Source: Pelomonas aquatica
GTDB lineage: Bacteria; Pseudomonadota; Gammaproteobacteria; Burkholderiales; Burkholderiaceae_C
NCBI RefSeq assembly: GCF_026712205.1
Contig: NZ_JAPPUW010000022.1
Location: forward strand, 1 to 64,000
Length of the DNA: 64,000 bases
Reading direction: 5' to 3'
The notes under the pieces are model-generated. The model ran no database searches. It was given only the letters and a program-made list of their open reading frames with translations, and had not been told where the DNA came from. Below, one piece after another: positions 8,240 to 54,294 of the stretch. A program made the translations under genes and the position numbers. Position 1 is the first letter of the stretch. Each line of letters starts with the position of its first letter.

Positions 8240-8264
8240 TGAACAAACTATCTAATTCTGTTTA
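8240..8264. promoter_or_regulatory. 25-bp palindromic operator, site A
   Basis: TGAACAAA-N9-TCTGTTTA. The two halves match at 6 of 8 positions as an inverted repeat. It lies between the LysR start (8186) and the oxidoreductase start (8292). It belongs to the set of nine ACA-N13-TGT sites in this window. Confidence 0.6.
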
Positions 8265-8291
8265 CATCAGTCACATCGACGCCCAGCACAC

Positions 8292-11200
8292 ATGAGCCAC
8301 TCCGTTCGATTGAGTGATAAGTACGACCTCCCTGCCGGTCGCGTCTTCATGACCGGAACACAGGCGCTGGTGCGCATGCTGCTGGCCCAGAAAGCCCGTG
8401 ACGAGGCCGTGGGGTTGAAGACCGAGGGCTTTGTCTCCGGCTATCGCGGCTCGCCACTGGGTGGCCTCGACCTGGAACTTTGGAAGAACAAGGCGCGCCT
8501 CACGGAGCGCAAGATTCGCTTCGAGCCGGGCCTCAACGAGGAACTTGCCGCCACGGCCATCTGGGGCACGCAGATGCTCGCACTAGACCCGAAGGCGCGG
8601 GTGGATGGCGTGTTCTCCCTCTGGTACGGCAAGGGGCCCGGCGTTGACCGATGTGGCGACGTATTCAAGCACGGCAATATCGCCGGCTGTGCACTTAAGG
8701 GCGGCGTGCTGCTGGTGGCAGGAGACGACCACTCCTGCAAGTCTTCCTCGCTACCGCACCAGAGCGAGCATGCGTTGATCGCCTCGATGATCCCCGTGCT
8801 GGCGCCGGCTGATCTCAACGACTTCATCGAGTACGGCCTGCACGGCTACGCGATGTCGCGCTACTCGGGCTGCTGGGTCGGCTACAAGGTTGTCAGCGAC
8901 ACGGTCGAGTCCTCCGGCTCGGTGGAAATTGATCCGATGGCCGTCGAGATCCGGATCCCCGACAGCTACCCGATCCCGCCGGATGGCTTCTCGATTCGCT
9001 GGCCCGATCCGCCACTGGTCCAGGAGAACCGGCTGCAACGTGAGCGCCTGTACGCGCTGCTGGAGTACGTCCGCGTCAACCGGCTGAACCGGCAGGACTG
9101 GTCGGCGCCGCAGGCCAGGCTGGGCATCGTGACCGCGGGCAAAAGCTACCTGGACGTGCGCGAGGCACTGAAGCTACTCGCGCTGAACGTGGACGGCGCG
9201 GCTGCGCTGGGCCTCAGGCTGCTGAAGGTGGGCGTGGTCTGGCCGCTGGAGCCGCAGTGCGTGGTCGAGTTTGCGCAGGGCCTGGAGGAGATCCTGGTCG
9301 TCGAGGAAAAGCGCCAGGTGCTGGAGTACCAGATCAAGGAACACCTGTACAACGAGCCGGATCGTCCACGCGTCGTGGGCAAGTACGACGATGCCGGCGA
9401 GTGGGTGAAGGTGCCGAGTCAACATATCCTGCTGTCGCCCAATGGCGAGCTGAACCCCGCGGTGATCGCCGATGCGATCGCACGCCGGCTCGAGCGAGTG
9501 CTCGGTCGCAGTGCCCTGCCCCCGGGCGTCAGCGCCTGGCTCGGCGAGGGCTGCACGGCAATTCGCCAAAGCCTGCCGGTCGATCCGAGCCTGCCGCAAC
9601 GGGTGCCCTACTTCTGCTCTGGCTGTCCCCACAACACCAGCACGCGCGTGCCCGAGGGTTCGCGGGCGCTCGCCGGTATCGGCTGCCATTACCTCGTGCA
9701 AGGCATGGACCGGCGCACCGAGACCTTCTCCCAGATGGGCGGCGAAGGCGCCACATGGATCGGCACCGCACCGTTCACGGACACGCCGCATGTGTTCGCC
9801 AACCTCGGCGACGGCACCTACATGCACTCAGGCTCGCTGGCGATCCGGGCAGCTGTCGCGGCCAAGGTCAACATCACCTACAAGCTGTTGGTCAATGATG
9901 CGGTCGCGATGACCGGCGGCCAGCCTGTTGAAGGCGCGCCTTCGGTGCCGCAGTTGATGCATCAACTCGCTGCGGAAGGCGTTCGCGAATTGCACCTAGT
10001 CAGCGATGAACCGGAGAACTTCAGCCTCAATGAGTTGCCGCCGGGCAGCCACATCGCGCATCGCGACAGCATGGATGCGTTGCAACGTCAGGTGCGCGAG
10101 GTCGGAGGCGTTTCGGCCATCGTCTACGTGCAGACTTGCGCCACCGAAAAGCGCCGGCGCCGCAAGGCGAAAAAGCTGGCTGATCCGGCCAGGCGGATCG
10201 TCATCAACGAAGCCGTCTGCGAAGGCTGCGGCGACTGCGGTATCCAGTCGAACTGCGTCTCGATCCTGCCATTGGAGACGGAACTGGGCCGCAAGCGTGT
10301 GATCGATCAGAGCTCCTGCAACAAGGACAGTTCGTGCGTGAACGGCTTCTGCCCCAGTTTCGTCACCGTGGAAGGCGCCGAGCCCCGCAAGCCCGATCGC
10401 AGCAAGATTAGGCTGCCGGAGAATTTGCCGGACCCTGCCCTGCCTAGCTTGGCTCAACCCTACAACATCCTGGTGGCTGGCGTTGGCGGTACCGGCGTCG
10501 TGACCATCGGTGCCATCCTTGGTATGGCGGCGCACATCGAGGGCAAGGGCGTCCGTGTGCTCGACATGGCGGGCCTGGCCCAGAAAGGCGGCGCCGTGCA
10601 GTCGCATGTGCGCCTGGCCGCAACGCCGTCCGAACTGCACGCCACCCGAGTGCCGCGGGCCCAGGCCGATCTGATCCTCGGCTGCGACCTGATGACCAGC
10701 GCCGGAACCGATCCGATGGCCACGCTTTCCATCGACCGGACCCGAGCGCTGATGAACACGGATGTGGCACCGACCGGCGCCTTCACGCGCAATCCCGATT
10801 GGCAAGCGTCGCCGGAAGGCCTGCTGGAGCATGTCCGCGGCGCAGTGATGGAACTCGCAGCCGTCGACGCCACGCGACTGGCCACTGCCCTGCTCGGCGA
10901 CGCGGTCGCGAGCAACATGTTCATGCTGGGCTACGCTTGGCAGAAAGGCTGGATCCCGCTGCAGCGCGAATCGCTGAGCCAGGCGATCGAACTGAACGGT
11001 GCCGCGGTGGCCATGAACCAGGGAGCCTTCACCTGGGGTCGCCAGGCCGCGCTGGACCTGACGGCCGTGCGCCTGGCTGCAGGCATCCGCCCTTCAGAGT
11101 CGCTCATGCTGATGCCCAACCGCCTCCCCAGCCTGGCGCAACTGCTGATTGACCGGGACAAGCGCTTGAGCGCCTACCAGGATGCCGCCTATGCCCAGCG

Positions 11201-11780
11201 CTACCGGCGCCTCGTCACCGAGATCGCGCGCCTCGAGCAGAGCCGCACCGGCGGCGACCGCTTCGCCCGTGAAGTGGCGGTCAGCCTCTACAAGCTGATG
11301 GCCTACAAGGACGAGTACGAAGTGGCGCGGCTCCATGTCGAGACCGGCTTCTTCGAGCGGATCCGTGAGCAGTTCGACGGCAAGCTGAGCCTGCGCTTCC
11401 ACCTGGCGCCGCCGCTGCTGGCGCGCAAGGATGAGCAGGGCCACCTGGTCAAGAAAGCCTACGGCCCGTGGGTCGCCGTCGTCTTCAAGGCGCTGGCCAA
11501 GCTGAAAGGCCTGCGCGGCACGCCTTTCGACCCCTTCGGCTACACGGCCGAGCGGCGGAGCGAACGCCAGGCCATCCGCGATTTCGAGGCACTGATGAGT
11601 GGCATCGCCGCCGAACTTGATCACCAACGCATGGCCATCGCCATGGAACTGGCGCGCCTGCCCCAGGCGGTGAAGGGCTTCGGCCACGTCAGGGACCGCA
11701 ACGCCAGAGCGGTGACGCTGAAGCAGGCTGAACTGATGCGCCGATGGAAGTCTTGCAACACGGTGCTGAAGGCGGCCTGA
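8292..11780 (+). CDS. Fused indolepyruvate-type 2-oxoacid:ferredoxin oxidoreductase
   Basis: A 1162-residue single-chain IOR-family enzyme (IorA-IorB fusion). Such enzymes oxidatively decarboxylate a 2-oxoacid to acyl-CoA with thiamine diphosphate and iron-sulfur clusters, passing electrons to ferredoxin. Visible parts are an N-terminal pyrimidine-binding domain (TGTQALVRMLL, SGYRGSPLGGLD), CSGCPHNTST near residue 442, the diphosphate-binding stretch LGDGTYMHSG then LLVNDAVAMTGG, and the cluster motif CEGCGDCGIQSNC near 642. The gamma domain follows (ILVAGVGGTGVVTIGAIL, LAQKGGAVQSHVR), then the C-terminal extension usual for fused forms. The usual substrate is an arylpyruvate. In this cluster it could instead act on 2-oxoacids released after ring cleavage; that is inference. 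Monocistronic, behind operator site A and opposite a LysR gene. Confidence 0.9.
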   Translation: MSHSVRLSDKYDLPAGRVFMTGTQALVRMLLAQKARDEAVGLKTEGFVSGYRGSPLGGLDLELWKNKARLTERKIRFEPGLNEELAATAIWGTQMLALDPKARVDGVFSLWYGKGPGVDRCGDVFKHGNIAGCALKGGVLLVAGDDHSCKSSSLPHQSEHALIASMIPVLAPADLNDFIEYGLHGYAMSRYSGCWVGYKVVSDTVESSGSVEIDPMAVEIRIPDSYPIPPDGFSIRWPDPPLVQENRLQRERLYALLEYVRVNRLNRQDWSAPQARLGIVTAGKSYLDVREALKLLALNVDGAAALGLRLLKVGVVWPLEPQCVVEFAQGLEEILVVEEKRQVLEYQIKEHLYNEPDRPRVVGKYDDAGEWVKVPSQHILLSPNGELNPAVIADAIARRLERVLGRSALPPGVSAWLGEGCTAIRQSLPVDPSLPQRVPYFCSGCPHNTSTRVPEGSRALAGIGCHYLVQGMDRRTETFSQMGGEGATWIGTAPFTDTPHVFANLGDGTYMHSGSLAIRAAVAAKVNITYKLLVNDAVAMTGGQPVEGAPSVPQLMHQLAAEGVRELHLVSDEPENFSLNELPPGSHIAHRDSMDALQRQVREVGGVSAIVYVQTCATEKRRRRKAKKLADPARRIVINEAVCEGCGDCGIQSNCVSILPLETELGRKRVIDQSSCNKDSSCVNGFCPSFVTVEGAEPRKPDRSKIRLPENLPDPALPSLAQPYNILVAGVGGTGVVTIGAILGMAAHIEGKGVRVLDMAGLAQKGGAVQSHVRLAATPSELHATRVPRAQADLILGCDLMTSAGTDPMATLSIDRTRALMNTDVAPTGAFTRNPDWQASPEGLLEHVRGAVMELAAVDATRLATALLGDAVASNMFMLGYAWQKGWIPLQRESLSQAIELNGAAVAMNQGAFTWGRQAALDLTAVRLAAGIRPSESLMLMPNRLPSLAQLLIDRDKRLSAYQDAAYAQRYRRLVTEIARLEQSRTGGDRFAREVAVSLYKLMAYKDEYEVARLHVETGFFERIREQFDGKLSLRFHLAPPLLARKDEQGHLVKKAYGPWVAVVFKALAKLKGLRGTPFDPFGYTAERRSERQAIRDFEALMSGIAAELDHQRMAIAMELARLPQAVKGFGHVRDRNARAVTLKQAELMRRWKSCNTVLKAA

Positions 11781-11823
11781 CCTCCGCATCGCGCAGTTGG
11801 AGACATTGAAATGGCCAATTGCA

Positions 11824-11848
11824 TGAACACATATTCTATTTGTGTTTA
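11824..11848. promoter_or_regulatory. 25-bp palindromic operator, site B
   Basis: TGAACACA-N9-TGTGTTTA; 7 of 8 positions match between the half-sites. It is 44 bases before the SDR start at 11892, where it would overlap a promoter. Confidence 0.6.
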
Positions 11849-11891
11849 AATAAATGCCAGCATCGCCAGACATCCGCGAAAGCCCCCCTTC

Positions 11892-12746
11892 ATGAACATC
11901 GACCTGAGCAACAAGCGCGTCATCATCACCGGCGCGTCACGCGGCATCGGCCGCGCCATCGCCACCGCATTCGCACAGGAAGGGGCGCGGGTCGCCATCT
12001 GTGCCCGCACCGAGGCGGATGTGCGGACGGTCGGCGACGAACTGGCGAAATCCGCCCAGGCCGTCATCGCGCGCGCGGTGGACGTGACGGATACCGTGGC
12101 GGTGAAGGCCTTCGTGGACGAGGTGGCGAGCGCCTGGGGCAGCGTGGACGTGCTCGTGAACAACGCCGGCCAGGGCCGCGGCGGCAACCTGGACACGTTG
12201 ACGCCCGAGCAGATCCTCGAGCATGCCAATGTGCTTCAGATGGGCCACTTCCGCTTCATCCAGGCGGTGGTACCGCACATGCGCCAGCAGCGCTGGGGCC
12301 GCATCATCGAGATCAACGCGCTGGCCGGCTCGATCCCGACGCCGGACGGCATCCCCTCGGTGATCAACCGCGCATCCTGCATCGCCCTGTCCAAGACGCT
12401 GGGCATGTCCCTGCCCAAGGACGGCATCCTGGTGAACACACTCAATATGGGCTGGATCGACACCGGCCAGTGGAACCGCCACTTCAAGGAAATGCCGGCC
12501 GGCAGTTGCACGCGCGAGGAGTTCGACGAGATGGTGCTCAAGGTCGTCCCCGCCGGCCGCTACGGCAAGCCGGAAGACGTCACCGGCATGGTGCTACTGC
12601 TGGCTAGCGACCGGGCCAGCTTCATCAGCGGCGCGTCCATCGACATCGCAGGCGGCATGCAGGGGCAGATCGCCTACTACCCGACGCTGAAGCGGGAGTT
12701 CAATGCGGCGATGCAGGAACGCGTAGACTCACGGGCATCGAGCTAA
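11892..12746 (+). CDS. SDR-family protein with altered active site
   Basis: A 284-residue short-chain dehydrogenase/reductase. It has the cofactor motif TGASRGIGRAIA near the N-terminus, NNAG near 90 and the C-terminal ISGASIDIAGG. Where classical SDRs carry YxxxK, the sequence reads GIPSVINRASCIALSKTLG, placing Ser and Arg at the Tyr and Lys positions. It may use another residue, act on a specialised substrate, or be a non-classical member. It is a single gene behind operator site B, converging on the extradiol dioxygenase operon. Likely role: oxidation or reduction of a hydroxy/keto intermediate of the pathway. The SDR fold is certain; the reaction is not. Confidence 0.85.
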   Translation: MNIDLSNKRVIITGASRGIGRAIATAFAQEGARVAICARTEADVRTVGDELAKSAQAVIARAVDVTDTVAVKAFVDEVASAWGSVDVLVNNAGQGRGGNLDTLTPEQILEHANVLQMGHFRFIQAVVPHMRQQRWGRIIEINALAGSIPTPDGIPSVINRASCIALSKTLGMSLPKDGILVNTLNMGWIDTGQWNRHFKEMPAGSCTREEFDEMVLKVVPAGRYGKPEDVTGMVLLLASDRASFISGASIDIAGGMQGQIAYYPTLKREFNAAMQERVDSRASS

Positions 12747-12761
12747 TCAGATCGACTAAGA

Positions 12762-12791
12762 AGCGGTGTCCTGATAGCTGCGGATGCCGCT
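12762..12791. terminator. Weak stem-loop between converging genes
   Basis: AGCGGTGTCC and GGATGCCGCT can pair over 10 bp with two G-U pairs and a 10-base loop. It sits between the ends of the SDR (+) and extradiol dioxygenase (-) genes. No T-run, so only a possible terminator. Confidence 0.3.
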
Positions 12792-12857
12792 GGCCGTGAT
12801 CGGCACCCGCAAACGCCGGTTGGAACTTTCTGTCAAAGGCGCCGCCCAGCGCGCAGA

Positions 12858-13784
12858 TCAGAAGTCCTTCAATTCCTCAACATTGCGCACGCTCGGCCCC
12901 AAGATCGGCCCGACAAGCTCATGCCCCCACGTGCTCATCTTCTCCGGATTCAGCTCGAATCCGTCGTTATGCCAGGGCTCCAGCTCGACGATGGTCTCGA
13001 AGGCGAAGCCAGACGGGTTGAAGTGATAGAAGGACATGTGCGGGTCTTGCGTGTGCTGGCCCAGCGTCATCATCATCGGCAGATTGCGCTTCCTGACGAT
13101 ATCGTAGGTCTGGCCGACATCCTGGACCGACTTCACGAATAGGCCCACATGCTGGACGCCGCGCTTGCCGGCACCGAAGCCGAAGGCGATGTCATGGCTG
13201 GTGGACTCGTTCAGCTTGGCGCGGAAGAACCCGGTCTTGCCTTTGCCCGCACCGGCGCCGTACCACTTGAAGCCCATCAGGTCGATCAGGAAGGACTCCA
13301 GCTCGGGCGGGTACTCCGGCGTGATGACGACCAGGTGCCCCATCCCACGGGCGTTCGCCACGAAGCCGCCATGCGGACGGCCCGGCACGAAGGACTTCGG
13401 CGTCCACTTCTGCGAGTAGTACAACTCGTGCTGATAGCCGACCGGATCTTTGAAACGGATCAGTTCCTTGACGCCACGCTGCTCGCACAGCGCCGCATCG
13501 CCGACCGTCACTTCGATGCTCGCCGCACGGAACTTCTCCACCGCGGCGACAAACTCCATCCGTCCGCGCGCCTCCCAGCCGATGTAGGCCAGGCGATCGA
13601 TCCTGCCGGGATGGAAGGCAAACCGGTTGCGGCGGTCGTCGATCTTGAAGTACAGCGACTCCGGATCGTTGGCCGGCACGGCGCCCAGTTGGAAGCCCAT
13701 CACCTCCGGGCCATAGCTGCGCCACTGATCCAGCGTGGCGGGTGTCGCTTCGAAACCGAGGTAGCCGAGGCCGATGATGTCCAT
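12858..13784 (-). CDS. Type I extradiol (BphC-like) ring-cleavage dioxygenase
   Basis: A 308-residue two-domain vicinal-oxygen-chelate protein. The C-terminal domain has the Fe(II) ligands H150 (MGHLVVIT), H212 (VQHVGLF) and E263 (GFAFETIVE). It also has the second-sphere H197 (STSHDIAF) and Y253 (YHFNPSGF), at nearly the spacing of 2,3-dihydroxybiphenyl 1,2-dioxygenase. It should open a catechol ring next to the hydroxyls (meta cleavage). GAGGAC precedes the ATG. It is the last gene of a ferredoxin-SDR-dioxygenase operon, so it probably cleaves the catechol formed by the Rieske dioxygenase and a diol dehydrogenase. DitC of diterpenoid degradation and HsaC of steroid degradation are comparable enzymes; which it resembles more cannot be decided by eye. 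Confidence 0.9.
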   Translation of the reverse strand: MDIIGLGYLGFEATPATLDQWRSYGPEVMGFQLGAVPANDPESLYFKIDDRRNRFAFHPGRIDRLAYIGWEARGRMEFVAAVEKFRAASIEVTVGDAALCEQRGVKELIRFKDPVGYQHELYYSQKWTPKSFVPGRPHGGFVANARGMGHLVVITPEYPPELESFLIDLMGFKWYGAGAGKGKTGFFRAKLNESTSHDIAFGFGAGKRGVQHVGLFVKSVQDVGQTYDIVRKRNLPMMMTLGQHTQDPHMSFYHFNPSGFAFETIVELEPWHNDGFELNPEKMSTWGHELVGPILGPSVRNVEELKDF

Positions 13785-13813
13785 GGTCGAGTCCTCTCAG
13801 GTAATCCGGTAGT

Positions 13814-14575
13814 TCAATGGGCCAGTAGGCCGCCGTCCACGACGACGTCGGTGCCAGTGATGAAGGACGCTTCGCTGGACGCCAGGAACAGCGCCGTGGA
13901 GACGACCTCGTGGGATTCGCCCGGCCGGTCCATCAGTACGCCGTCCAGGATGACGGCCCGCATCGCCGCGTTCTGCATGAAGGTTTCGGTGCCCGGCGTG
14001 GCGATGAAGCCCGGGCTGATGCTGACCGCCCGGATGCCTACCTTGGCTCCCTCGATCGCGATCTGCCGCGTGAACGACACCACCGCGCCCTTGGCTGCCG
14101 CGTGGGCCGAGATTCCGGCCGCCTTGGAACCACCCCAGGCGGCGACGGACGAGACGTTCAGCACCACGCCACGCTGTCTGGCCAGGTGCGGCCAAGCATA
14201 TTTGGTGGCGAAGAAGACCAGGTCGATCTCGTTGCGCATGGTGAAGCGCCAATCTTCGATCGACAGCTCGGCCACCGGCCCGAAGCGGGCGGCCGAGGCG
14301 TTGTTGTAGAGCACATCGATGCGACCGTGCTGCTCCGCGGCACCCTCAATCCACTGGCGGGCCTGCTCGGGTTCGCCCAGGTCCACCGGCGCCATGCCGT
14401 GCAGCGTCAGCCCTTCGGCGGCCATCAGCGCGCGCGTGCCTTCATGCCCATCGGCGTTGACGTCGCAGCCGACAACGATGGCGCCCTCGCGCGCAAAGCG
14501 CAGCGCCGCGACGCGCCCCTGGCCGCCGCCGCTGCCGGTGAGCAGGACGACCCTACCTTCGAAGCGACCGGCCAT
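13814..14575 (-). CDS. SDR-family dehydrogenase, catalytic Tyr replaced by His
   Basis: A 253-residue SDR: cofactor motif TGSGGGQGRVAALRFA at the N-terminus, NNASAARFG, and the C-terminal ITGTDVVVDGG. The active-site block reads AGISAHAAAKGAVVSFTRQIA, so the usual YxxxK is HxxxK; codon CAC was checked in the DNA. Its place between the ferredoxin and extradiol dioxygenase genes suggests a cis-dihydrodiol dehydrogenase step, the expected reaction between ring dihydroxylation and ring cleavage. The 2-base gap to the ferredoxin stop implies coupled translation. The His substitution makes the catalytic mechanism uncertain. Confidence 0.85.
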   Translation of the reverse strand: MAGRFEGRVVLLTGSGGGQGRVAALRFAREGAIVVGCDVNADGHEGTRALMAAEGLTLHGMAPVDLGEPEQARQWIEGAAEQHGRIDVLYNNASAARFGPVAELSIEDWRFTMRNEIDLVFFATKYAWPHLARQRGVVLNVSSVAAWGGSKAAGISAHAAAKGAVVSFTRQIAIEGAKVGIRAVSISPGFIATPGTETFMQNAAMRAVILDGVLMDRPGESHEVVSTALFLASSEASFITGTDVVVDGGLLAH

Positions 14576-14577
14576 GG

Positions 14578-14799
14578 TCAGGCGACGGCTTCGACGGCCA
14601 GGGCCTCGGCCGGGCAGGCCGCGGCGCCTTCCTTCGCTTCTTCCTCCAGGCCGGCGGGCACCAGGTCGCTATCGAGATAGACAAGCCCGTCTGAATCCAG
14701 CTTGTAGACCGTGGGGCAGACCTGGGCGCACAGCCCGTAGCCGCAGCAGCGGCTGCGGTCGGCGATGACGCGGAATTTCGGGGTGTCGGACGAACTCAT
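14578..14799 (-). CDS. [3Fe-4S]-type ferredoxin
   Basis: A 73-residue ferredoxin starting at the ATG at 14799, preceded by AGGAGA; the longer frame to 14832 lacks this. Cysteines are C18, C19, C24, C28 and C62 (SRCCGYGLCAQVCP ... AAACPAEA). Reading C18-x2-Y21-x2-C24 and C62-P, the second cluster Cys is replaced by Tyr. This is the signature of single-cluster [3Fe-4S] ferredoxins that serve P450s and a few ring-hydroxylating dioxygenases. DitA3 of the abietane dioxygenase is reported as such an unusual type. It leads the operon with the SDR and extradiol dioxygenase. Possible partners are the Rieske oxygenase (49957) and the P450 (28856), reduced by the flavoprotein at 58217. Its operator resembles that of the Rieske gene most closely. 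Confidence 0.88.
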   Translation of the reverse strand: MSSSDTPKFRVIADRSRCCGYGLCAQVCPTVYKLDSDGLVYLDSDLVPAGLEEEAKEGAAACPAEALAVEAVA

Positions 14800-14835
14800 C
14801 TTGTCTCCTGTCGTCGATCTCTTGTCGACCAATTA

Positions 14836-14860
14836 TGCACACTAATGCTGATTGTGTCTT
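14836..14860. promoter_or_regulatory. 25-bp palindromic operator, site C
   Basis: TGCACACT-N9-TGTGTCTT, 37 bases before the ferredoxin start. It has the ACA-N13-TGT core. Its reverse complement is almost the same as site H (51388-51412) before the Rieske dioxygenase. Confidence 0.55.
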
Positions 14861-14889
14861 CAAATCGGAGCCGGACCGATCGGTGATTA

Positions 14890-14922
14890 TTCGGATATCG
14901 GAATGCTTTTCCATATCTAGAA
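14890..14922. promoter_or_regulatory. Two copies of a TTC-N8-GAA motif before the IclR gene
   Basis: TTCGGATATCGGAA (14890-14903) and TTCCATATCTAGAA (14909-14922) share the frame TTC-N8-GAA with an ATAT centre and lie 19 bases apart. A third copy precedes the CoA ligase at 45958. IclR proteins commonly bind short AT-centred palindromes near their own promoters, so this is a candidate autoregulatory site. Confidence 0.45.
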
Positions 14923-14988
14923 TGACATGACACCTTTCCATGGCCACGCTTTGCGCACGGCACCACTTCATCCTCGCATCTCATCACC

Positions 14989-15810
14989 ATGCCCAGCGCG
15001 ACGAACGAAGAACATGAAGTGGACGAAGACGCCGACAACGGCTCCCGAAACAGCACCAGCGTCAGCGGCGTCACGGTCAAGCCGGTCTCCAATGCGATCC
15101 GCATCCTGCGCTATCTGTCGCAGACCGCGGCGCCCGAACGCGCTGCCGATATCGCGCGCCACCTGCAGATCAATCCGAGCACCTGCTTCAACATCCTGCG
15201 CACGCTGGTCGCCGAGGAGGTGGTCGAGTTCAATCCGGTGTTCAAGATGTACACCGTCGGCCTGGGCCTGGCCAAGCTGGCCAACCAGGTGATGACGCAG
15301 GGGCAGCGCATCGAACTGGCCCGCCCGGTGATGGAGGACCTTGCGGCGCGCTACCAGGTCACGATGACGCTGTGGCGCCGCATGGGTCTCGACCGGATCG
15401 TGCTGGTCAGCTCCGTCGTGAGCCCCGCCGCGCTGCGAATCGACATGCCGCCGGGCCAGCGCTTGCCACTGCTGATGGGCGCCAGCGGCCGCCTGTTCAT
15501 CGGCCAACTGGGCTGGAGCGAAGAAGAGACCCGCAAGGAGTTCGAGGGCATCCACTGGTCCCGCCCCCTCTCCTTCGACACCTACTGGCGCGAAGTGAAC
15601 AGGGCCAGGAAGCGCGGCTGGGCCCAGGACGACGGCTACTTCTCCAATGGCATCCTGGCCATCGCCGCCCCGGTCTACGATCCCTCCGGCAGGATTGCGT
15701 TCACGCTGTCCGCCGTGATGATTCGCGGCCACTATGACGACGACGGCTTGGATGCCATCGGGGAGGCGCTCCGCGCCGCCGGCACTGCGCTGACCAAGAC
15801 GCTCTTCTAG
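14989..15810 (+). CDS. IclR-family transcriptional regulator
   Basis: A 273-residue IclR regulator. A variable acidic N-terminus (about 1-25) is followed by the winged HTH (about 28-90: VSNAIRILRYLSQTAAPERAADIARHLQINPSTCFNILRTLVAEEVVEF) and the C-terminal effector domain (about 105-270: VTMTLWRRMGLDRIVLVSS, GQRLPLLMGASGRLFIG). It is divergent from the ferredoxin operon and upstream of the amidohydrolase/acyl-CoA dehydrogenase operon, so it is well placed to control both. DitR of the diterpenoid cluster is also IclR-type. Two TTC-N8-GAA palindromes sit in its promoter. The effector is unknown. Confidence 0.9.
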   Translation: MPSATNEEHEVDEDADNGSRNSTSVSGVTVKPVSNAIRILRYLSQTAAPERAADIARHLQINPSTCFNILRTLVAEEVVEFNPVFKMYTVGLGLAKLANQVMTQGQRIELARPVMEDLAARYQVTMTLWRRMGLDRIVLVSSVVSPAALRIDMPPGQRLPLLMGASGRLFIGQLGWSEEETRKEFEGIHWSRPLSFDTYWREVNRARKRGWAQDDGYFSNGILAIAAPVYDPSGRIAFTLSAVMIRGHYDDDGLDAIGEALRAAGTALTKTLF

Positions 15811-15838
15811 GTACAAACACCAGACAGTGCGCAACTAC

Positions 15839-15863
15839 TGAACAGAGTCATTGATTCTGTTCA
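15839..15863. promoter_or_regulatory. 25-bp palindromic operator, site D (perfect)
   Basis: TGAACAGA-N9-TCTGTTCA: all 8 positions of the half-sites are complementary. This is the best copy of the motif and serves as its reference. It lies 85 bases before the operon starting at 15948. Confidence 0.65.
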
Positions 15864-15947
15864 ATTTAGATCCTATCATCAGCCCCACATCGGAACCGAG
15901 CGCGGCCGCAGTCCGCTTCGGCGCTCACGCAACCCAAGGGGAAGTTG

Positions 15948-20234: not shown

Positions 20235-20239
20235 TCGCC

Positions 20240-21364: not shown

Positions 21365-21465
21365 AGACGGCAGCCACGCTGATGATCGCATCGATGCGCC
21401 CCCTATCCCGAGCGCACGGGCTGCCTGCCACGCCAGCTGGCCGCGGCACCAAGGAGACAAGCATC

Positions 21466-23987: not shown

Positions 23988-24036
23988 TCCGCCGCCCAAA
24001 CTCAGAGTAAACACTTATGTCACTCTGCCTCTATGG

Positions 24037-24061
24037 TTGACACTATTCGCATATCTGTTCA
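24037..24061. promoter_or_regulatory. 25-bp palindromic operator, site E
   Basis: TTGACACT-N9-TCTGTTCA: a perfect right half and a degenerate left half with the ACA core. It ends 9 bases before the ATG at 24071 and overlaps the ribosome-binding region, so a bound repressor would block the 13-gene operon. Confidence 0.5.
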
Positions 24062-24070
24062 GGAACAAAT

Positions 24071-25279
24071 ATGCGTACTTCGTCGCCGGAACCTGTTGCC
24101 GATCTTTCTGACCCCGTCGCCCTTGCCCGCGCGCTGACGCCGCTGCTCGCCAAGCATGCCGAGAACGCAGAGCGCGAGCGCTGCGCCAGCGCCGTGGTGA
24201 TCCAGGCACTGCGCGATGCAGGCCTGTTCAAGATGATGTTCGCCCGCCGGGCTGGCGGCGTCGGCCACAAGCTAATCACCCACGTCGAGACGGTCGCCGA
24301 ACTGGCCCGCGGCTGCCCGGGCACGGCCTGGGCCTTCGGCCTGCTCTCCGGCGTGACCGGCTCGGCCTCCGCGATGCCGCCGGTCATCCGCGACCTGGTC
24401 TTCAAGCGAGGCGATGAACTGGTGTGCAGCGTCGCCGGCCAGATCGGCACCGCGCGCGCCACCGAGGGCGGGTACGTCGTCGATGGTTCCTGGGGCTACG
24501 GTTCGGGCTGCCTGCATGCGGACTGGGCACTGAACGGAATCCGCATCCTGGACGATCAGGGTCAGCAGAACGACGCGGGCTTCGCCTTCCTGCCGCTGGC
24601 CGGGCCGGACGTAGCCATCCAGGACACCTGGCATGTCTCGGGCCTGTCGGCCTCGGGCAGCAACACCATCGTAGCCAGCAAGGCCTTCGTGCCGTCGACG
24701 CTGGTGCTGCGCTTCTCGGCGCTTCGCGGCAGCCGTCCGCTGGCCGAGATGGAGCCGCGGGACCGCTGGCCCGTCGAGCCGCTGTTCCCGCTGGGCGTAC
24801 TGTCGCCGATGCTCGGCGCTGCCGGTGCGATGCTGGACATCGTCAAGGCGAACATGCCCGCGCGGCCGACGATCGGCTGGCAGTACGGCAAGCAGGCGGA
24901 CTCGCAGACTTTCGTCGGCCAACTTGGCGAGGCGGCGCTCGAGATCGACTCGGCCTGGCTGCATGTGCGCCGGGCCGTCTCGATGATCGACGAGGCCGCA
25001 CAGAGCCAGCCGCTGAGTGGCTACGAGAAGGCGCGCGTCCAGGCGGACTGCGGCTACGCGATGCGGCAGTTGCGCCGCGCCGGCGAGCGCCTGATGGAGA
25101 TCGCCGGGCCGGGCGCCTTCGCGCTCAGCAGCCCCTTGCAGCGCCTGTGGCGCGACCTGAGCGTCGGCTCGCGACACACGGCGCTGAACACGATGCTGTC
25201 CACCGAACTCTATGGCCGCGCGCTGCTGGGCCAGGCCTCGAACCTGTCGCTGCTGCCCGATATCCGCGAGGCCGCCTGA
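24071..25279 (+). CDS. Acyl-CoA dehydrogenase-fold flavin monooxygenase (HsaA/HpaB-like)
   Basis: A 402-residue protein with the acyl-CoA dehydrogenase fold but monooxygenase features: CPGTAWAFGLLSG near the start, a central strand domain (GGYVVDGSWGYGSGCLHADWALNG) and the C-terminal LQRLWRDLSVGSRHTALN. The W-R-D-x3-G-x-R-H motif is typical of two-component group D flavin monooxygenases (HsaA, HpaB-C2, DszC). These use reduced FMN or FAD from a separate reductase to hydroxylate aromatic or keto substrates. The reductase is probably encoded at 30503 in the same operon. It leads a run of 13 same-strand genes and lies just before a TetR gene. Likely role: hydroxylating a phenolic intermediate before ring cleavage. 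Confidence 0.85.
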   Translation: MRTSSPEPVADLSDPVALARALTPLLAKHAENAERERCASAVVIQALRDAGLFKMMFARRAGGVGHKLITHVETVAELARGCPGTAWAFGLLSGVTGSASAMPPVIRDLVFKRGDELVCSVAGQIGTARATEGGYVVDGSWGYGSGCLHADWALNGIRILDDQGQQNDAGFAFLPLAGPDVAIQDTWHVSGLSASGSNTIVASKAFVPSTLVLRFSALRGSRPLAEMEPRDRWPVEPLFPLGVLSPMLGAAGAMLDIVKANMPARPTIGWQYGKQADSQTFVGQLGEAALEIDSAWLHVRRAVSMIDEAAQSQPLSGYEKARVQADCGYAMRQLRRAGERLMEIAGPGAFALSSPLQRLWRDLSVGSRHTALNTMLSTELYGRALLGQASNLSLLPDIREAA

Positions 25280-25280
25280 A

Positions 25281-25976
25281 GTGGAATCGACCGCCTCTAC
25301 CGAGGACTTCCGCGTCCGCTCCGCCGCGGAGAAGCGCGAGCGCATGCACGCCCGGCTGATCGCCGCGACGATGGAGGCCTATCTGCAGGCGCCAGCCGGC
25401 TTCCACCCGGTGATCGACGACGTGATCCGCGTGGCCGACGTCTCCCGCGGCACCTTCTACAAGTACTTCGATTCGCTGGACGAGGTGCGCGCCAAGATCG
25501 GCCGCAGCATGGCGGGCGAGATGCTGTCGAGCTACGAGGCGCTGTTCGCCGGCATCGAAGACTACGCCGTGCGCATGGCGGCCGGCCCGCTGATGGCGCT
25601 GGCCCGCGCGGCCATGGAGCCGCGGCACGCCGCCTTCATCTCGCGCGTCGACTTCATCGAATTCCTCGACGGCGAGGACCCGCGCAGCGTGATCGTCAAG
25701 CGCGGGCTCGAGGAAGGCCGGCAGCGCGGCCAGGTGCAATTCGAATCGCTGGAGGCCGCGGTGGACTTGGTCGTCGGTGTGAGCCTCGAGGGTGCGCGGC
25801 GGATCTTGCAGACCGGCGCGCTGGACGGCGCCTACATCCGCGAGACCGCGACGCTGGTGATGCTGGGCCTGGGCCTGTCCCGCCCAGAAGCCAAGGCCGC
25901 CGTCACCGCCGCCTGGGAACACCTGCAAAAAGTATCGGGCCGGCTGCACTGGTGGAGACCGGTCGGCGGCATTTAA
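25281..25976 (+). CDS. TetR-family transcriptional regulator
   Basis: A 231-residue TetR-type repressor. The HTH lies around 45-70 (IDDVIRVADVSRGTFYKYFDSLDEVRAKIG), followed by a helical ligand-binding domain. The start is the GTG at 25281, one base after the previous stop; later in-frame ATGs would cut into the HTH. Being second in the operon whose promoter carries operator site E, it is the best candidate for the protein that binds the nine 25-bp palindromes and represses itself. That assignment is inference; LysR, IclR and another TetR are also in the window. Confidence 0.88.
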   Translation: MESTASTEDFRVRSAAEKRERMHARLIAATMEAYLQAPAGFHPVIDDVIRVADVSRGTFYKYFDSLDEVRAKIGRSMAGEMLSSYEALFAGIEDYAVRMAAGPLMALARAAMEPRHAAFISRVDFIEFLDGEDPRSVIVKRGLEEGRQRGQVQFESLEAAVDLVVGVSLEGARRILQTGALDGAYIRETATLVMLGLGLSRPEAKAAVTAAWEHLQKVSGRLHWWRPVGGI

Positions 25977-26013
25977 GACAAGAAACGCGTTCGAGAAGAA
26001 CCCGAAGGATCCC

Positions 26014-43699: not shown

Positions 43700-43724
43700 T
43701 AGGCATATTTAGCAAATATGTTCA
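43700..43724. promoter_or_regulatory. 25-bp palindromic operator, site F
   Basis: TAGGCATA-N9-TATGTTCA: strong right half, left half matching at 5 of 8 positions. It lies between the divergent amidohydrolase (43603, minus) and VOC (43756, plus) genes and could serve both. Confidence 0.45.
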
Positions 43725-44963: not shown

Positions 44964-45827
44964 TCAGCGGCGGGTGCGGACCACGCCGGCACCCATGATC
45001 GTCGTGATCATGCGGGTCACGCGGCGCGGCAGGCTGTGGCGTTCAGTCGAGCCGGACACCAGTTGCTCGCTGAGCACATAGCGGATCAGCATTTCGCTGA
45101 CCAGTTCACGGTCGATGCGGGCGCCGAGACGGTCGTCCCAGGCATCGAAGACCGGCCGCAGAACATCTTCGAAACGAACGACCGCGTCATGGAAGATTCG
45201 CTTGAAGAAGCTCAGCGCGTAGTCCGGCGCCACCAGCAGCAGCCGCCGCGCGTTGCCATGCTCCAGATAGCGCTCCAGATAGGCCAGCAGCGCATCGAAG
45301 CGCTCGTCCGGGTCGGCGAAGGGCTCGACAGCTTCCTGCAACGCTCGGTGGAAGCGATCGCGCTTGTGGCGAGAGAAGGAATCCAGCAGGTCGTCCTGCG
45401 AGGAGAAGTAGCGATAGAAGGTGCCGCGCGAGACATTGGCGAGCTTGCACACGTCCAGGATGGAGATGCGGCTGGCGCCGGACTCCAGCACGATCTGCTC
45501 GGTCGCGACGAGGATGGTCTCGATCGTCTCCTCGGAGCGCTTGTTGCGGCGCTTGCGCCGCACCGGTGTGGCGGCCGGTGCAGGCGCCACTGCGGCTGGC
45601 GCCGCGGCCGGTGGCACCAGGGCCATGACGGGTTTGGCGGGCGCCTTGGCAGTCTTCGCCTTCACCGCCGCGGGCTTAGGCACTTTCGCCGCTTTTGTCG
45701 CGGCCTTTGTGGCGGCCGCGCGCCGTGTGGGCTGCGTCACGGCCGACAGCGCCGCACTGCGCTGGGCAGGTGCCTTGCCGATGGCATCGATCACTTGCGC
45801 CGGCGACTGCTCTTTCTCTCGTCCCAT
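44964..45827 (-). CDS. TetR-family regulator with histone-H1-like N-terminal tail
   Basis: A 287-residue TetR protein. Residues 98-145 form the HTH (EETIETILVATEQIVLESGASRISILDVCKLANVSRGTFYRYFSSQ), and the helical effector domain follows. The first 97 residues are unusual: Ala/Lys/Pro-rich repeats such as RRAAATKAATKAAKVPKP and AAVKAKTAKAPAKP, an Ala-Pro stretch, then RRKRRNKR. This looks like the lysine-rich tails of histone H1-like and AlgP-like proteins and probably binds DNA non-specifically. The ATG at 45827 is the first available; a start just before RRKRRNKR is not marked. It is divergent from the CoA ligase gene and is probably its regulator. Confidence 0.88.
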   Translation of the reverse strand: MGREKEQSPAQVIDAIGKAPAQRSAALSAVTQPTRRAAATKAATKAAKVPKPAAVKAKTAKAPAKPVMALVPPAAAPAAVAPAPAATPVRRKRRNKRSEETIETILVATEQIVLESGASRISILDVCKLANVSRGTFYRYFSSQDDLLDSFSRHKRDRFHRALQEAVEPFADPDERFDALLAYLERYLEHGNARRLLLVAPDYALSFFKRIFHDAVVRFEDVLRPVFDAWDDRLGARIDRELVSEMLIRYVLSEQLVSGSTERHSLPRRVTRMITTIMGAGVVRTRR

Positions 45828-45957
45828 GTTCGGTCCTCGCTGAGGTATCTGGATTGTCGATCATCTTCTTGGTTTTTAGACACGCATTTCCGCCTGCGGC
45901 CCGAGCCGTTCAGGGTAAACACGCGTGAGGCGCGTCGCCCCTACATCTAGAATTTTA

Positions 45958-45971
45958 TTCTCATATTGGAA
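45958..45971. promoter_or_regulatory. TTC-N8-GAA motif before the CoA ligase gene
   Basis: TTCTCATATTGGAA, in the same TTC-N8-GAA frame with ATAT centre as the two copies before the IclR gene (14890, 14909). It lies between the divergent TetR and CoA ligase genes, 21 bases before the ligase ATG. It could bind IclR or the adjacent TetR. Confidence 0.4.
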
Positions 45972-48542: not shown

Positions 48543-48567
48543 TGAACACATTTAGCACCATCGTACA
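48543..48567. promoter_or_regulatory. 25-bp palindromic operator, site G
   Basis: TGAACACA-N9-ATCGTACA: strong left half, weak right half. It lies between the divergent SDR (48520, minus) and DUF2889-like (48600, plus) genes. Additional dyad sequence (CACTT..AGAC / GTCT AAGTG) follows at about 48566-48591. Confidence 0.45.
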
Positions 48568-48599
48568 CTTTAAGACCACTATGTCTAAGTGAAATCTCC

Positions 48600-49325: not shown

Positions 49326-49336
49326 ACGCCAGCCAT
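49302..49336 (-). terminator. Intrinsic terminator of the Rieske dioxygenase operon
   Basis: Read on the minus strand, ATGGCTGGC and GCCAGCCAT form a perfect 9-bp stem with a 12-base loop, followed directly by TTTTTCATC. It lies 21 bases after the beta-subunit stop and overlaps the last codons of the converging DUF2889-like gene. Confidence 0.75.
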
Positions 49337-49356
49337 TCGCAAGGGCTCTAAGGGTC

Positions 49357-49920
49357 TCAGAGGAAGATAGCCAGGTTCGGTGTGCCGAGCACGGCCTGGT
49401 CGAGCAGGATCTCGCGGCGGGCCAGCTTGAAGCTGTTGCCGTCCTTGCGCAGGATGTCGTGGCGCTCCGCGCTAATCAGGTCGAACTCGTCGAAATTGAA
49501 ACGGCTGCGCGTGACCAGCAGATAGCTGACGACGGCGAACTCGTCGGGCTTGGCGGTTTTGCGCACAAGCACGTTGGTGACCAGGCGGCGGGTGCGCGAG
49601 GGCGGGTCCTCGGCCCAGGCGCTCTTGCCCGTGAGACGCATGATGCGGCCCATCACCGAGCGGTAGTCGTCGTGGTAGTGCTGCACGCTGCGGACATAGG
49701 TGGCGGCCTGATGGGCCGAGCCGCGAGTCTCGCGCAGCGGCGCGTTGTAGACCAGGTCGGTGGCCAGCGTCGCGGCCCATTCCGTCAGGCGGATCTGGTC
49801 GAGCAGCGCCGCCTCGTCATAGAGGAATTCGACGATGCGGTTGTACTCGGGCGCGCCCACCGGCACGCGCTCAAAGGTCTCGGTGGACTCCACGGCCTGG
49901 CTTTCAAGAACGGCTGACAT
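49357..49920 (-). CDS. Ring-hydroxylating dioxygenase, beta subunit
   Basis: A 187-residue small subunit of a Rieske dioxygenase with the SnoaL-like cone fold: EFLYDEAALLDQIRLTEWAATLATDLVYNAPL near the N-terminus, MGRIMRLTGKSAWAEDPPSRTRRLVTNVLV in the middle and the final sheet RHDILRKDGNSFKLARREILLDQAVLGTPNLAIFL. This is the normal family order and length. It has a structural role, supporting the alpha3-beta3 hexamer. It lies 36 bases after the alpha-subunit gene, with AGGAG before the ATG. A strong terminator follows. DitA2 is a comparable protein. Confidence 0.92.
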   Translation of the reverse strand: MSAVLESQAVESTETFERVPVGAPEYNRIVEFLYDEAALLDQIRLTEWAATLATDLVYNAPLRETRGSAHQAATYVRSVQHYHDDYRSVMGRIMRLTGKSAWAEDPPSRTRRLVTNVLVRKTAKPDEFAVVSYLLVTRSRFNFDEFDLISAERHDILRKDGNSFKLARREILLDQAVLGTPNLAIFL

Positions 49921-49956
49921 GACAGATTAGCTCCTTGGACTGATGTGGCGGGGGGG

Positions 49957-51354
49957 TCAGACTTCCGAGGTCATCAACTCGCGCCAGTACATCCACCAGT
50001 GCCACTGGGTGTCGTCCTTGGTGAAACCTTCGTTGACCATGCCAGGGCCGGGCCAGCCTTCGGGCGCGCCGGTCTCGTACACGGCCTGGTACTTGAGGGT
50101 CTGCTTTTTGCCCATCGCGCCCTTGGCGGAGAGCGTTATGTGGGGCCAGGTGTCTGAGTCGTCCTGCTCGACCATGCCCGAGGTGCCGAAGAGCTGGATC
50201 GTCTGCTTCAGGATGCGTTCGCGCAGTTCCTGCGGCGCGTCCTTCTCGGCCAGGATCCAGTTGACAAACTCGAGCTTGTCCGGGCCGCGCGGCACGTAGG
50301 CATGCAGCGTCAGCGAGCCCAGGACGGAACCGTCCGGCTGCGGGATGTAGACGAAGCCGAACAGCACATTCGGGAAGATGCCGCCCACCTGCGGCGGCAT
50401 TGTCGTCAGCACCTGCAACTGCTCGGGGCTGAGGTTGCGGGCCAGTTGCTCGACCATGTCCTTGTGCATGCCGGCGGGCGGGAGCGCGTCGAGCTTCTGC
50501 TGGACGCTGAGCTCCTTTGGATCCAGGCCGGTCAGGCGCGAGATCTTGCGGGCCAAGTCGATGCAGCGCAGCGCGTGGCCGTGCGGCGAGCTGATCTCGA
50601 CACCGTACATCTCCGGGCTCAGGTCGGCACTGGTGCCGTCCTCGTTCTTCTTGGCGTAGTTGCCGACCTCGCCGAGCCAGCGGTGCAGCGTCAGCGTGTG
50701 GAAGCCGTCGGCCGCGGACTGCTCGCCGGCGGCCTTCCAGTTCGCGCGGACGACGAAGCGCTGCGGCGGGCCGAGCACTTCCAGGCCGCGGTCGCTGCGC
50801 TTGAAGAGCATGTCGTAGTACCACTTGGCATCGCCGAGGAAGTCCTCGAAGGACGGGCCCTCAATGTTCCAGGTGGCGAAGATCAAGCCACCATAGAGGG
50901 TGACCCGGGCCTTCTTCAGGCCCAGTTCCTCCTTGCACATCATCTTGCCGTGCATGCACTCCTTCTCGACCGGCGCGCCGATGAAGTCGCCGTTCGGGCG
51001 GAAGGCCCAGCCGTGGTATATGCATTTGTGGATCTGCGTGTTGCCGCCGTCCAGCACGGAGACACGCATGCCGCGGTGCGGGCAGACGTTGAGCATCACG
51101 TGCACCTCGCCAGCCTTGTCGCGCGAGATGATGACCTGGTCCGAGCCCATGTCGCGGACAACGAAGTCGCCGGAGTTCGGGATCTCGGATTCATGGCCCA
51201 GGAAGTTCCAGATCTTGCCGAAGATGCGCTCCATCTCCAGTTCGTAGATCTCGGGATCGGAGAGGACCCTCATCTGGACTTCCCGCGTCGCGGGCAAGAC
51301 CAGGTCGGCGATCTTTGTGCCGTCGGCCAGCATCGGGCTCGTCTGCGTCAGCAT
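49957..51354 (-). CDS. Ring-hydroxylating dioxygenase, alpha subunit (Rieske)
   Basis: A 465-residue oxygenase large subunit. The Rieske [2Fe-2S] motif is C91-P-H93 and C111-x2-H114 (NVCPHRGM, CIYHGWAF). The mononuclear Fe(II) site is H219 and H224 (AADGFHTLTLH) with an Asp in VEQDDSD (398 or 399); D216 is the electron-bridging Asp. It should add both atoms of O2 to an aromatic ring, giving a cis-dihydrodiol, with electrons from the ferredoxin at 14578 and reductase at 58217. It is the first gene of a two-gene operon behind operator site H, which is nearly the same as site C of the ferredoxin operon. DitA1 is the suggested analogue. The substrate is not proven. Confidence 0.95.
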   Translation of the reverse strand: MLTQTSPMLADGTKIADLVLPATREVQMRVLSDPEIYELEMERIFGKIWNFLGHESEIPNSGDFVVRDMGSDQVIISRDKAGEVHVMLNVCPHRGMRVSVLDGGNTQIHKCIYHGWAFRPNGDFIGAPVEKECMHGKMMCKEELGLKKARVTLYGGLIFATWNIEGPSFEDFLGDAKWYYDMLFKRSDRGLEVLGPPQRFVVRANWKAAGEQSAADGFHTLTLHRWLGEVGNYAKKNEDGTSADLSPEMYGVEISSPHGHALRCIDLARKISRLTGLDPKELSVQQKLDALPPAGMHKDMVEQLARNLSPEQLQVLTTMPPQVGGIFPNVLFGFVYIPQPDGSVLGSLTLHAYVPRGPDKLEFVNWILAEKDAPQELRERILKQTIQLFGTSGMVEQDDSDTWPHITLSAKGAMGKKQTLKYQAVYETGAPEGWPGPGMVNEGFTKDDTQWHWWMYWRELMTSEV

Positions 51355-51387
51355 GCTTGTGCTCCTGTTTGTCTCTTCATCTAATAT

Positions 51388-51412
51388 AAGACACTATCGA
51401 CGATAGTGTGCA
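51388..51412. promoter_or_regulatory. 25-bp palindromic operator, site H
   Basis: AAGACACT-N9-AGTGTGCA; inside it, ACACTATCG-A-CGATAGTGT is a perfect 19-bp palindrome. It lies 34 bases before the Rieske alpha-subunit start. Its reverse complement matches site C of the ferredoxin operon in both half-sites. Confidence 0.6.
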
Positions 51413-51462
51413 TACAAATTATCGCGTGCCACAATGAGATCAATCCCACCGGACCGTGCCGC

Positions 51463-52494: not shown

Positions 52495-52523
52495 CGGGGC
52501 GGCCTTCGCGAAGCGGATCGGGA

Positions 52524-53528: not shown

Positions 53529-53549
53529 GGTTTCTTGTCGGGTGGATGG

Positions 53550-54251
53550 TCAGGTGCGGCCCGCGACGGGCAGCAAGGCGCCGGTGATCGCCGCAGCGTC
53601 ATCGGACAGCAGGAACTTGATCACGTAGCCCAGGGCCTGGGGCGTGACCCAGCGGTCGAAGGCGGCATCCGGCATGTCGGCGCGATTGGCCGGCGTGTCG
53701 ATGATGCTGGGCAGCACGGCATTGACGGTGATGCCGCGGTCCTTCAGTTCTTCGGCCAGCGCCTCGGTGAAGCGCATCACGCCGGCCTTCGACGCGGCGT
53801 AGGCGCCCATGCCGGTGGCAGCCTTCACCGCGCCGAGCGCGGCGATGTTGACGATGCGGCCACGGCCGTCGGTGCTCAGGTACGGCAACGCCGCCTGGCT
53901 CGCCGACACGGCGCTGCGCAGGTTCATCGCGTAGAGGCGGTCCCAGGTGTCCAGCTTGCCGTCGCCCACGGTCTCCCAGGCGAACCCGCCGGCGACGTTG
54001 ACCAGGCCATCGATGCGCTGCCAGCGCTGCCGGACCTGTGCAAATGCAGCAGCGGCCGCGCCAGCATCGCCCAGGTCCGCGCCGCCAATGGTCAGCACGC
54101 GGTCGCCGTCAGGCAGCCCCACCCCCGCCGGCGCCCTATCCAGCAGGGCGACACGCGCCCCCTCCTCCAGCAGCACCGCTGCCAGCGCCCGCCCCAGCGC
54201 GCCGAAGCCGCCGGTCACCACGAAAACCCGGTCAGACAGTGAGGAAGCCAT
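53550..54251 (-). CDS. SDR-family oxidoreductase (short)
   Basis: A 233-residue SDR: VFVVTGGFGALGRALAAVLLEEGARVALLDRA, LVNVAGGFAWETV, NIAALGAVKAATGMGAYAASKAGVMRFTEALAEEL with intact YAASK, and a shortened end (AAITGALLPVAG). It is the first gene of the minus-strand SDR-FAH-51463 operon and divergent from the amidohydrolase at 54340 across operator site I. The catalytic set is complete, so a real dehydrogenase; substrate unknown. Confidence 0.9.
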   Translation of the reverse strand: MASSLSDRVFVVTGGFGALGRALAAVLLEEGARVALLDRAPAGVGLPDGDRVLTIGGADLGDAGAAAAAFAQVRQRWQRIDGLVNVAGGFAWETVGDGKLDTWDRLYAMNLRSAVSASQAALPYLSTDGRGRIVNIAALGAVKAATGMGAYAASKAGVMRFTEALAEELKDRGITVNAVLPSIIDTPANRADMPDAAFDRWVTPQALGYVIKFLLSDDAAAITGALLPVAGRT

Positions 54252-54269
54252 CGTGAAAACCCTCTAAGT

Positions 54270-54294
54270 TATACATCTTGACTGAATATGTTCA
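54270..54294. promoter_or_regulatory. 25-bp palindromic operator, site I
   Basis: TATACATC-N9-TATGTTCA: strong right half; the left half keeps the T-N2-ACA core. It lies between the divergent SDR (54251, minus) and amidohydrolase (54340, plus) genes. CTGAA-TATG-TTCAG overlaps its right part. Confidence 0.45.

Follow-up and report, generated by a model that had tools for sequence, protein, structure and literature searches.

Control of the degradation of resin acids, the diterpenes of conifers, is little studied. In the dit gene set of bark-beetle bacteria, ditR codes for an IclR-type regulator (PMC12628601). The name DitR is also borne by a diamide-responsive repressor of Stenotrophomonas. 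DitR of P. abietaniphila is reported to be an inducer-dependent activator of ditA3 that is not strictly required for growth. No DitR operator in diterpenoid degradation was found among titles and abstract openings, a body of literature in which the relevant journals are thinly covered. For binding sites of the IclR family in general, the survey of Suvorova and Gelfand (2021, PMC8222616) gives two published types, group 2 of which reads TGRAACA-N1-2-TGTTYCA. Here we describe a stretch of 64,000 nucleotides from Pelomonas aquatica (contig NZ_JAPPUW010000022.1, positions 1 to 64,000; hereafter the window), in which nine 25-bp palindromes of the type TGAACA-N13-TGTTCA are spread over a large catabolic gene cluster. 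As judged from the comparison of sequences, these nine sites are probably operators of one dit regulon, and their most likely reader is the DitR-like regulator of the IclR family encoded at position 14989 (IclR 14989).

All nine 25-mers, named A to I in order of position, were checked and lie exactly at the coordinates given for them in the initial annotation. The exact sequence TGAACA-N13-TGTTCA occurs only once, at 15839 (site D), in the entire 5.12-Mb genome. Sites A to I have 7, 9, 5, 11, 5, 8, 5, 9 and 8 complementary pairs out of 12, respectively, thus most copies are imperfect palindromes. The common core ACA-N13-TGT, proposed for the whole set, is present in seven of nine sites and absent from those at 43700 (GCA) and 48543 (CGT). 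A symmetric weight matrix was built on the nine sites, and their leave-one-out scores, quoted below for each site, range from 16.4 to 30.0.

To find related clusters, IclR 14989 was compared with proteins of a family sample of 299 genomes. Four genomes besides the host contain a relative of more than 60% identity: Pelomonas sp. KK5, which has the closest one (96%), and the genomes G115, G052 and G131. Two plasmids, from Massilia putida (58-59%) and Caulobacter sp. FWC26 (48%), were added. Two further strong relatives came from a sample of 399 genomes of the order, and none from 369 genomes of the class; no relative was found in viral contigs, and two phage records contain relatives of 26% identity. 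KK5 was excluded from the following count since it is too close to the host. With a threshold of 16.4, the window matrix detects 37 sites in 340 kb of clusters from the five other genomes or plasmids (12 in Massilia, seven in G115, nine in G052, five in G131 and four in Caulobacter). When 500 symmetric column-permuted matrices were run over the same 340 kb, the mean was 1.13 sites and the maximum nine, and none reached 37. All 12 Massilia sites are intergenic, as compared to approximately 3.3% of 25-mers on that plasmid, and so are all four sites of Caulobacter. We regard the permuted-matrix control and the intergenic count as the fair tests of the motif.

For each of the nine sites, two or more other clusters have a counterpart ahead of the orthologous gene, and some of the missing counterparts concern contigs that stop short of the orthologous gene. 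Positions of the sites are retained even though the gap sequence around them diverges. It is thus reasonable to conclude from this conservation across genomes that the nine sites are far beyond chance. The same holds for sites F, G and I, all conserved in other clusters, which had been suspected of being weak chance copies. This conservation lends strong support to the proposal that a single regulator governs a regulon spanning the cluster.

Site A (8240..8264; score 23.6) is located between the LysR-type regulator gene on the minus strand and an indolepyruvate-ferredoxin-oxidoreductase-like gene on the plus strand; its counterparts are KK5 L029:7256, Massilia L026:28232 and G052 L036:4928. 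Site B (11824..11848; 30.0) lies upstream of the SDR gene 11892 and corresponds to G115 36791, G052 L036:5953 and, weakly (13.5), KK5 L029:12040. Massilia has no counterpart of site B; the Massilia SDR gene at this place sits close behind another gene. Site C (14836..14860; 22.6) separates the ditA3-like ferredoxin gene (minus strand) from the gene of IclR 14989 (plus strand), with counterparts at KK5 17392, G131 L037:17788, G052 L036:9221, Massilia L026:20831 (16.3), Caulobacter L066:104 and, weakly (12.9), G115 39814. Site D (15839..15863; 26.1), the best copy, is found 3' of the IclR gene and ahead of the amidohydrolase gene 15945, and it is present in all six other clusters. Site E (24037..24061; 21.7) precedes an acyl-CoA dehydrogenase-like gene at 24071 and recurs at KK5 30799 and G131 L037:3638. 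Site F (43700..43724; 26.4) lies between the amidohydrolase gene 42521 (minus strand) and the VOC gene 43756 (plus strand); it has counterparts at KK5 L057:17684, G115 58623, G131 L060:2803, Massilia L026:11559 and Caulobacter L066:10228. Site G (48543..48567; 17.2), between the SDR gene 47720 (minus strand) and the DUF2889 gene 48600 (plus strand), corresponds to KK5 L057:12833, G115 62032, G052 L059:3436 and Massilia L026:13068. Site H (51388..51412; 16.4) is placed ahead of the ditA1-like gene for the Rieske dioxygenase alpha subunit (49957-51354, minus strand), and its counterparts are KK5 L057:9981, G115 64882, two copies in G052 (L059:586 and L061:2214) and Massilia L064:9345. Finally, site I (54270..54294; 21.6), between the SDR gene 53550 (minus strand) and the amidohydrolase gene 54340 (plus strand), matches KK5 L057:7097, G115 66902, Massilia L026:18246 and G052 L061:3587.

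The statement that the palindrome precedes almost every catabolic operon is overstated. Of the 14 promoter-bearing gaps (those of 70 bp or more ahead of a gene start, according to the gene model made for this analysis), nine contain a site; the five gaps at 19423, 30140, 39129, 45601 and 55351 contain none. Additional copies were also noticed. A weak second copy (8180-8204; score 10.0) lies about 60 bp before site A, and KK5 has one as well (L029:7196; 12.3). KK5 further contains two strong additional copies, L029:5035 (35.6) and L029:10844 (24.1), near open reading frames of 370 and 304 amino acids.

Judged from the window alone, the set of nine sites is weakly significant and could be due to chance. 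With up to three mismatches, 17 matches were counted, as compared to 9.5 expected (standard deviation 3.0), and at least 17 were reached in four of 100 shuffles. When all 6-mers were searched with spacers of 0 to 20, TGAACA-N13 was found in six of 26 gaps, which ties it with GGCGCC-N20, and six gaps were also attained in five of 20 shuffled sequences. These shuffle tests being weak, the caution about chance copies expressed in the initial annotation was justified as far as the window is concerned. At the level of the whole genome, six sites with at most one mismatch exist, three of them here. With at most two mismatches there are 53 sites versus 17 for a reversed control pattern. Eight of the 53 are on this 70.5-kb contig, which makes up 1.4% of the genome; one of the eight is a GC-rich hairpin at 7126, and the sites at 14836, 43700 and 51388 are not included. 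The GC-rich palindrome (7126-7150) was rejected as a candidate: it fits the pattern with two mismatches, but has no matrix score above 7 and resembles a stem-loop.

Outside the nine sites, the highest matrix scores on the contig are 16.5 (position 69930) and 12.0. A sample of 380 kb from other parts of this genome has a top score of 16.5 and a second of 14.5. Seven sites (at least 21.6) are clearly higher than this background, G is barely so and H is not. Since the best background score is 16.5, G and H are not distinguished by score alone. A degenerate pattern, which was drawn after viewing the nine sites so as to accommodate each of them with no more than one mismatch, matches the genome 34 times, 11 of these on the contig (the nine sites, 8180 and 69930); the reversed control matches 11 times.

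Exact matches to the degenerate pattern in eight other genomes or records number 27, as compared to three for the reversed pattern. They are divided among KK5 (three), G115 (five), G052 (six), G131 (two), the Massilia plasmid (ten) and the Caulobacter plasmid (one); two sphingomonad plasmids have no exact match. Twenty-two of the 27 are in the clusters or on cluster contigs (three in KK5, four in G115, five in G052, one in G131, eight in Massilia and one in Caulobacter), where contig C55 of G052 was counted as a cluster contig because it carries a relative of the TetR-type regulator TetR 25281. The other five are on G115 C20, G052 C24, G131 C113 and at two places of the Massilia plasmid. As for the occurrence of the motif outside the cluster, which a genome scan was to decide, the motif is infrequent in other parts of the genomes and records covered. 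A sequence-only covariance model has six matches in this genome, namely three sites on both strands, all in the cluster; it is too short for low E-values, the best in this genome being 0.94. Matches of this model listed in five genomes or records, from a search with a loose first look, are all within the clusters.

Position 69930-69954 of the contig (L028:9930-9954), beyond the window, is occupied by an operator-like site of score 16.5, about 140 bp before the gene series DUF1302-DUF1329-YCF48-MMPL. No counterpart scoring above 10 was found in the adjoining G115 stretch L068. Because of this, and because the score equals that of the best background match, it can only tentatively be regarded as a tenth operator of the regulon.

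According to Pfam and NCBIfam domains, the cluster codes for Rieske dioxygenase alpha and beta subunits, a ferredoxin, a BphC-like extradiol dioxygenase, a P450 and many SDRs, along with fumarylacetoacetate-hydrolase-fold (FAA) proteins, amidohydrolases, acyl-CoA dehydrogenases, thiolases and a CoA ligase. Domain matches place ditA2A1-like genes for the beta and alpha subunits of a Rieske ring-hydroxylating dioxygenase at 49357..51354 (minus strand), and ditC-, ditB- and ditA3-like genes for an extradiol (BphC-like) dioxygenase, an SDR and a ferredoxin at 12858..14832 (minus strand). The combination of ditA1A2-type dioxygenase, ferredoxin and extradiol dioxygenase that characterizes dit clusters is therefore present, by domain class and not by identity to a named DitA. 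A ditF-like thiolase gene is located at 55687, far from the IclR gene. On the Massilia putida plasmid, the order is FAA hydrolase, SDR, OB-fold protein, thiolase, IclR, ferredoxin, SDR and VOC. Because both the gene set and this order resemble the dit genes listed in PMC12628601, the cluster is probably a dit cluster for catabolism of abietane diterpenoids (resin acids), the substrate being deduced from gene content.

The cluster within the window encodes four regulators: LysR 7179, IclR 14989, TetR 25281 and TetR 44964. IclR 14989 (14989..15810, plus strand) contains both domains of its family, HTH_IclR (PF09339; 2.6e-9, 37.2 bits with a cut-off of 22) and IclR_C (PF01614; 2.7e-19, 69.8 bits with a cut-off of 24). 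Its relatives in the six other clusters are 48-96% identical. In five of seven clusters, site C lies on one side of its gene and site D on the other (C being weak in G115), and the gene is located, as is typical of DitR, inside a dit-like cluster, whose genes are named by Pfam class rather than by named Dit proteins. The LysR-type gene (7179..8246, minus strand) probably has its true start inside the open reading frame, whose upstream end overlaps site A. LysR 7179 was rejected as common reader: no match at E <= 1e-50 was found in the motif-bearing G115, G131 or Caulobacter plasmid. By distribution, both LysR 7179 and TetR 25281 appear to be out, which would make IclR 14989 the better candidate.

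When plasmids were searched for ditA1, without reference to IclR, the top ranks went to Massilia, Caulobacter, Novosphingobium resinovorum and Croceicoccus marinus (Croceicoccus with two records, one of which was fetched). The ditA1 clusters of Massilia and Caulobacter both have the IclR gene and the motif. Clusters of N. resinovorum and C. marinus have a ditA1 of 55-56% identity and a relative of TetR 44964 (32%); in 41 kb, neither an IclR nor a BphC-like match was obtained at E <= 1e-6. No site of at least 16.4 occurs in these two sphingomonad clusters; the best score is 7.2 in one of them, and in the other a score of 15.3 falls within a coding sequence and one of 14.2 within an unannotated stretch. 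Since relatives of TetR 44964 are about equally distant in the motif-bearing Caulobacter (35%) and in the two motif-less clusters, IclR follows the motif better than TetR 44964 does, a comparison that rests on four clusters.

Reading of the operators by TetR 44964, a possible counterpart of DitK that would act as a ligand-released repressor, is the alternative that survives best; we consider it conceivable, though unlikely. The gene (44964..45827, minus strand) probably starts at approximately 45600, as TetR_N begins at residue 105. Palindromes of such length are common for TetR proteins, and in Massilia another site precedes an SDR-TetR gene pair. Several further observations weigh against IclR 14989 as the reader. 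Relatives of TetR 44964 occur in all seven motif-bearing sources, none of which was found through TetR, whereas six of the seven motif clusters were found via the IclR protein, so that presence of IclR in all seven is partly a matter of selection. In Massilia, a 25-bp site lies between the CoA ligase gene and the relative of TetR 44964. The recognition helix of TetR 44964 is largely kept in Caulobacter; that of IclR is largely kept there as well, and the comparison does not discriminate between the two. Absence of IclR is not the sole difference of the two sphingomonad clusters, which also lack a BphC-like match. Among 19 loci of distant IclR relatives (29-37% identical) and two loci of another family, no site of at least 16.4 was found (best score per locus -0.7 to 15.6). 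Moreover, the spacing of boxes is 13 bp, as compared to 1-2 bp in the published IclR type of the same box order.

On the contrary, the gap ahead of TetR 44964 has no 25-bp site in the window, KK5, G115, G052 or G131. In place of it, the stretch that separates TetR 44964 from the CoA ligase gene contains a different conserved block, RTTCYNATATNAGAA followed by ATTCTA, in five clusters, approximate in G131. This includes another palindrome of the type TAGAAT-N3-ATTCTA (45948..45962), situated between TetR 44964 and the divergent CoA ligase gene 45984 and perhaps serving either of them; this palindrome has one mismatch in the window, KK5 and G052 and three in G131, and is not present in G115. Palindromes of this second type (one or two mismatches) recur in Caulobacter (L027:18449, 21319 and 35317, L065:15908), and a copy lies in Massilia (L026:19964) just ahead of the IclR gene. 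They may represent the TetR operator of a second, overlapping regulon.

A reader encoded elsewhere than in the cluster is improbable. Searches of Massilia and Caulobacter covered their plasmids, which leaves room for such a protein on the host chromosomes. Nevertheless, the motif accompanies the cluster in two bacterial classes, on plasmids predicted to be mobilizable (Massilia) and conjugative (Caulobacter), and its rarity elsewhere in the searched genomes and records argues in the same direction.

Still less probable is reading by TetR 25281 (25212..25976, plus strand; gene from about 25281), suggested as common regulator in the initial annotation. Its gene follows directly behind the gene next to site E, and relatives of 59-93% identity exist in KK5, G131 and G052. 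It is, however, not conserved together with the motif: no match at E <= 1e-8 was found in G115, which is 98% complete, or on the plasmid of Caulobacter, and the sole match on the Massilia plasmid is 26% identical, the search having covered the plasmids of these two; all three sources bear the motif. Such gaps in distribution among motif-bearing sources make both TetR 25281 and LysR 7179 unlikely common readers, so this proposal was not borne out. The view that the sites are palindromes which arose by chance in the AT-rich gaps of a GC-rich genome, to which the weak window-only tests leave some space, is hardly credible in view of the permuted matrices, which have the same base content, and of the orthologous positions kept while neighbouring gap sequence diverges.

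We return to IclR 14989 as the probable reader and to the architecture of its putative operator. The 37 outside sites yield the logo T[GA]AACA-S-WWTY-N3-RAWW-S-TGTT[CT]A, bordered on either side by an A/T-rich flank of roughly five bases; selection of these sites relied on the window matrix, which makes the flanks the only part that does not depend on it. When spacing of the boxes was varied from 7 to 21 in the other clusters, a peak of 37 matches was obtained at 13, with 21 at 11, 20 at 15 and one to nine at the rest. At site D, a sigma-70-like -35 element overlaps the operator: in five of seven clusters, TTGAnn occupies operator positions 13-18 and TA[TG]CAT follows 17 bp on, an expression that was written after viewing the site D alignment. 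Site D of Massilia and of Caulobacter does not match this -35/-10 expression. A promoter scan of positions 7000-26000 revealed five promoter-like sites, as compared to 1.4 expected. Four of them coincide in part with operator B, C or D, including one on a strand without a close downstream gene. There is thus a tendency for the operator to lie over promoter elements, in keeping with a repressor.

A dimer or tetramer of IclR 14989 might grip the two TGAACA/TGTTCA boxes inside their A/T-rich frame. Box centres would be 19 bp (about two helical turns) apart and hence on the same face of DNA. Binding would control transcription, as suggested by the position of sites on promoter elements, and the inducer is presumed to be a resin acid or a pathway intermediate. 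The geometry would fit repression; an inducer-dependent activator is equally possible.

The cluster itself may be mobile. A phage-type integrase gene (1236-2510) lies near the start of the contig; no IclR match at E <= 1e-20 was found in three sampled genomes of the same genus, and another genus has a protein of 96% identity. Together, the integrase and the lack of IclR in same-genus genomes suggest a genomic island. With the two plasmid-borne copies described above, the regulon may travel as a unit. Previous work, as noted in PMC10710418, suggests that horizontal transfer is not the main way in which ditA1 spreads, and this counts against such travel. A conserved operator together with a named candidate regulator provides a testable regulon. 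The motif can serve as a marker for further diterpenoid-degradation genes via their promoters, and it might possibly become part of a resin-acid sensor for pulp effluent.

Comparison with described systems shows the following relationships. According to PMC12628601, the dit clusters of Pseudomonas, Acinetobacter and Serratia likewise have an IclR-type gene (ditR) among genes resembling those found here (ditA1A2A3-, ditB-, ditC-, ditF-, ditG- and ditH-like). They consist of 8-12 genes, and the cluster described here is larger. Likeness to DitR is by gene content. TetR-family operators are 20-30 bp long and are similar to our sites in length and symmetry, but the candidate TetR 44964 has a different palindrome before its own gene. 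According to PMC8222616, IclR group 2 has near-identical boxes in the same order, one base longer than here, and its spacing of 1-2 bp makes ours wider by about one helical turn; group 1, e.g. TGTYCRYW3RYGRACA, has the same box letters in reverse order. If the reader is a TetR protein, the palindrome is an ordinary long TetR operator; if it is an IclR protein, it is a new spacing variant, and the wide spacing, if true, extends the described range of IclR-family sites. DitR-type regulators may well use a third architecture of IclR operators, in which TGAACA/TGTTCA boxes are set about one turn wider and the A/T-rich centre can double as a -35 element, so that one regulator would serve ten or so promoters of a whole diterpenoid cluster in Beta- and Alphaproteobacteria.

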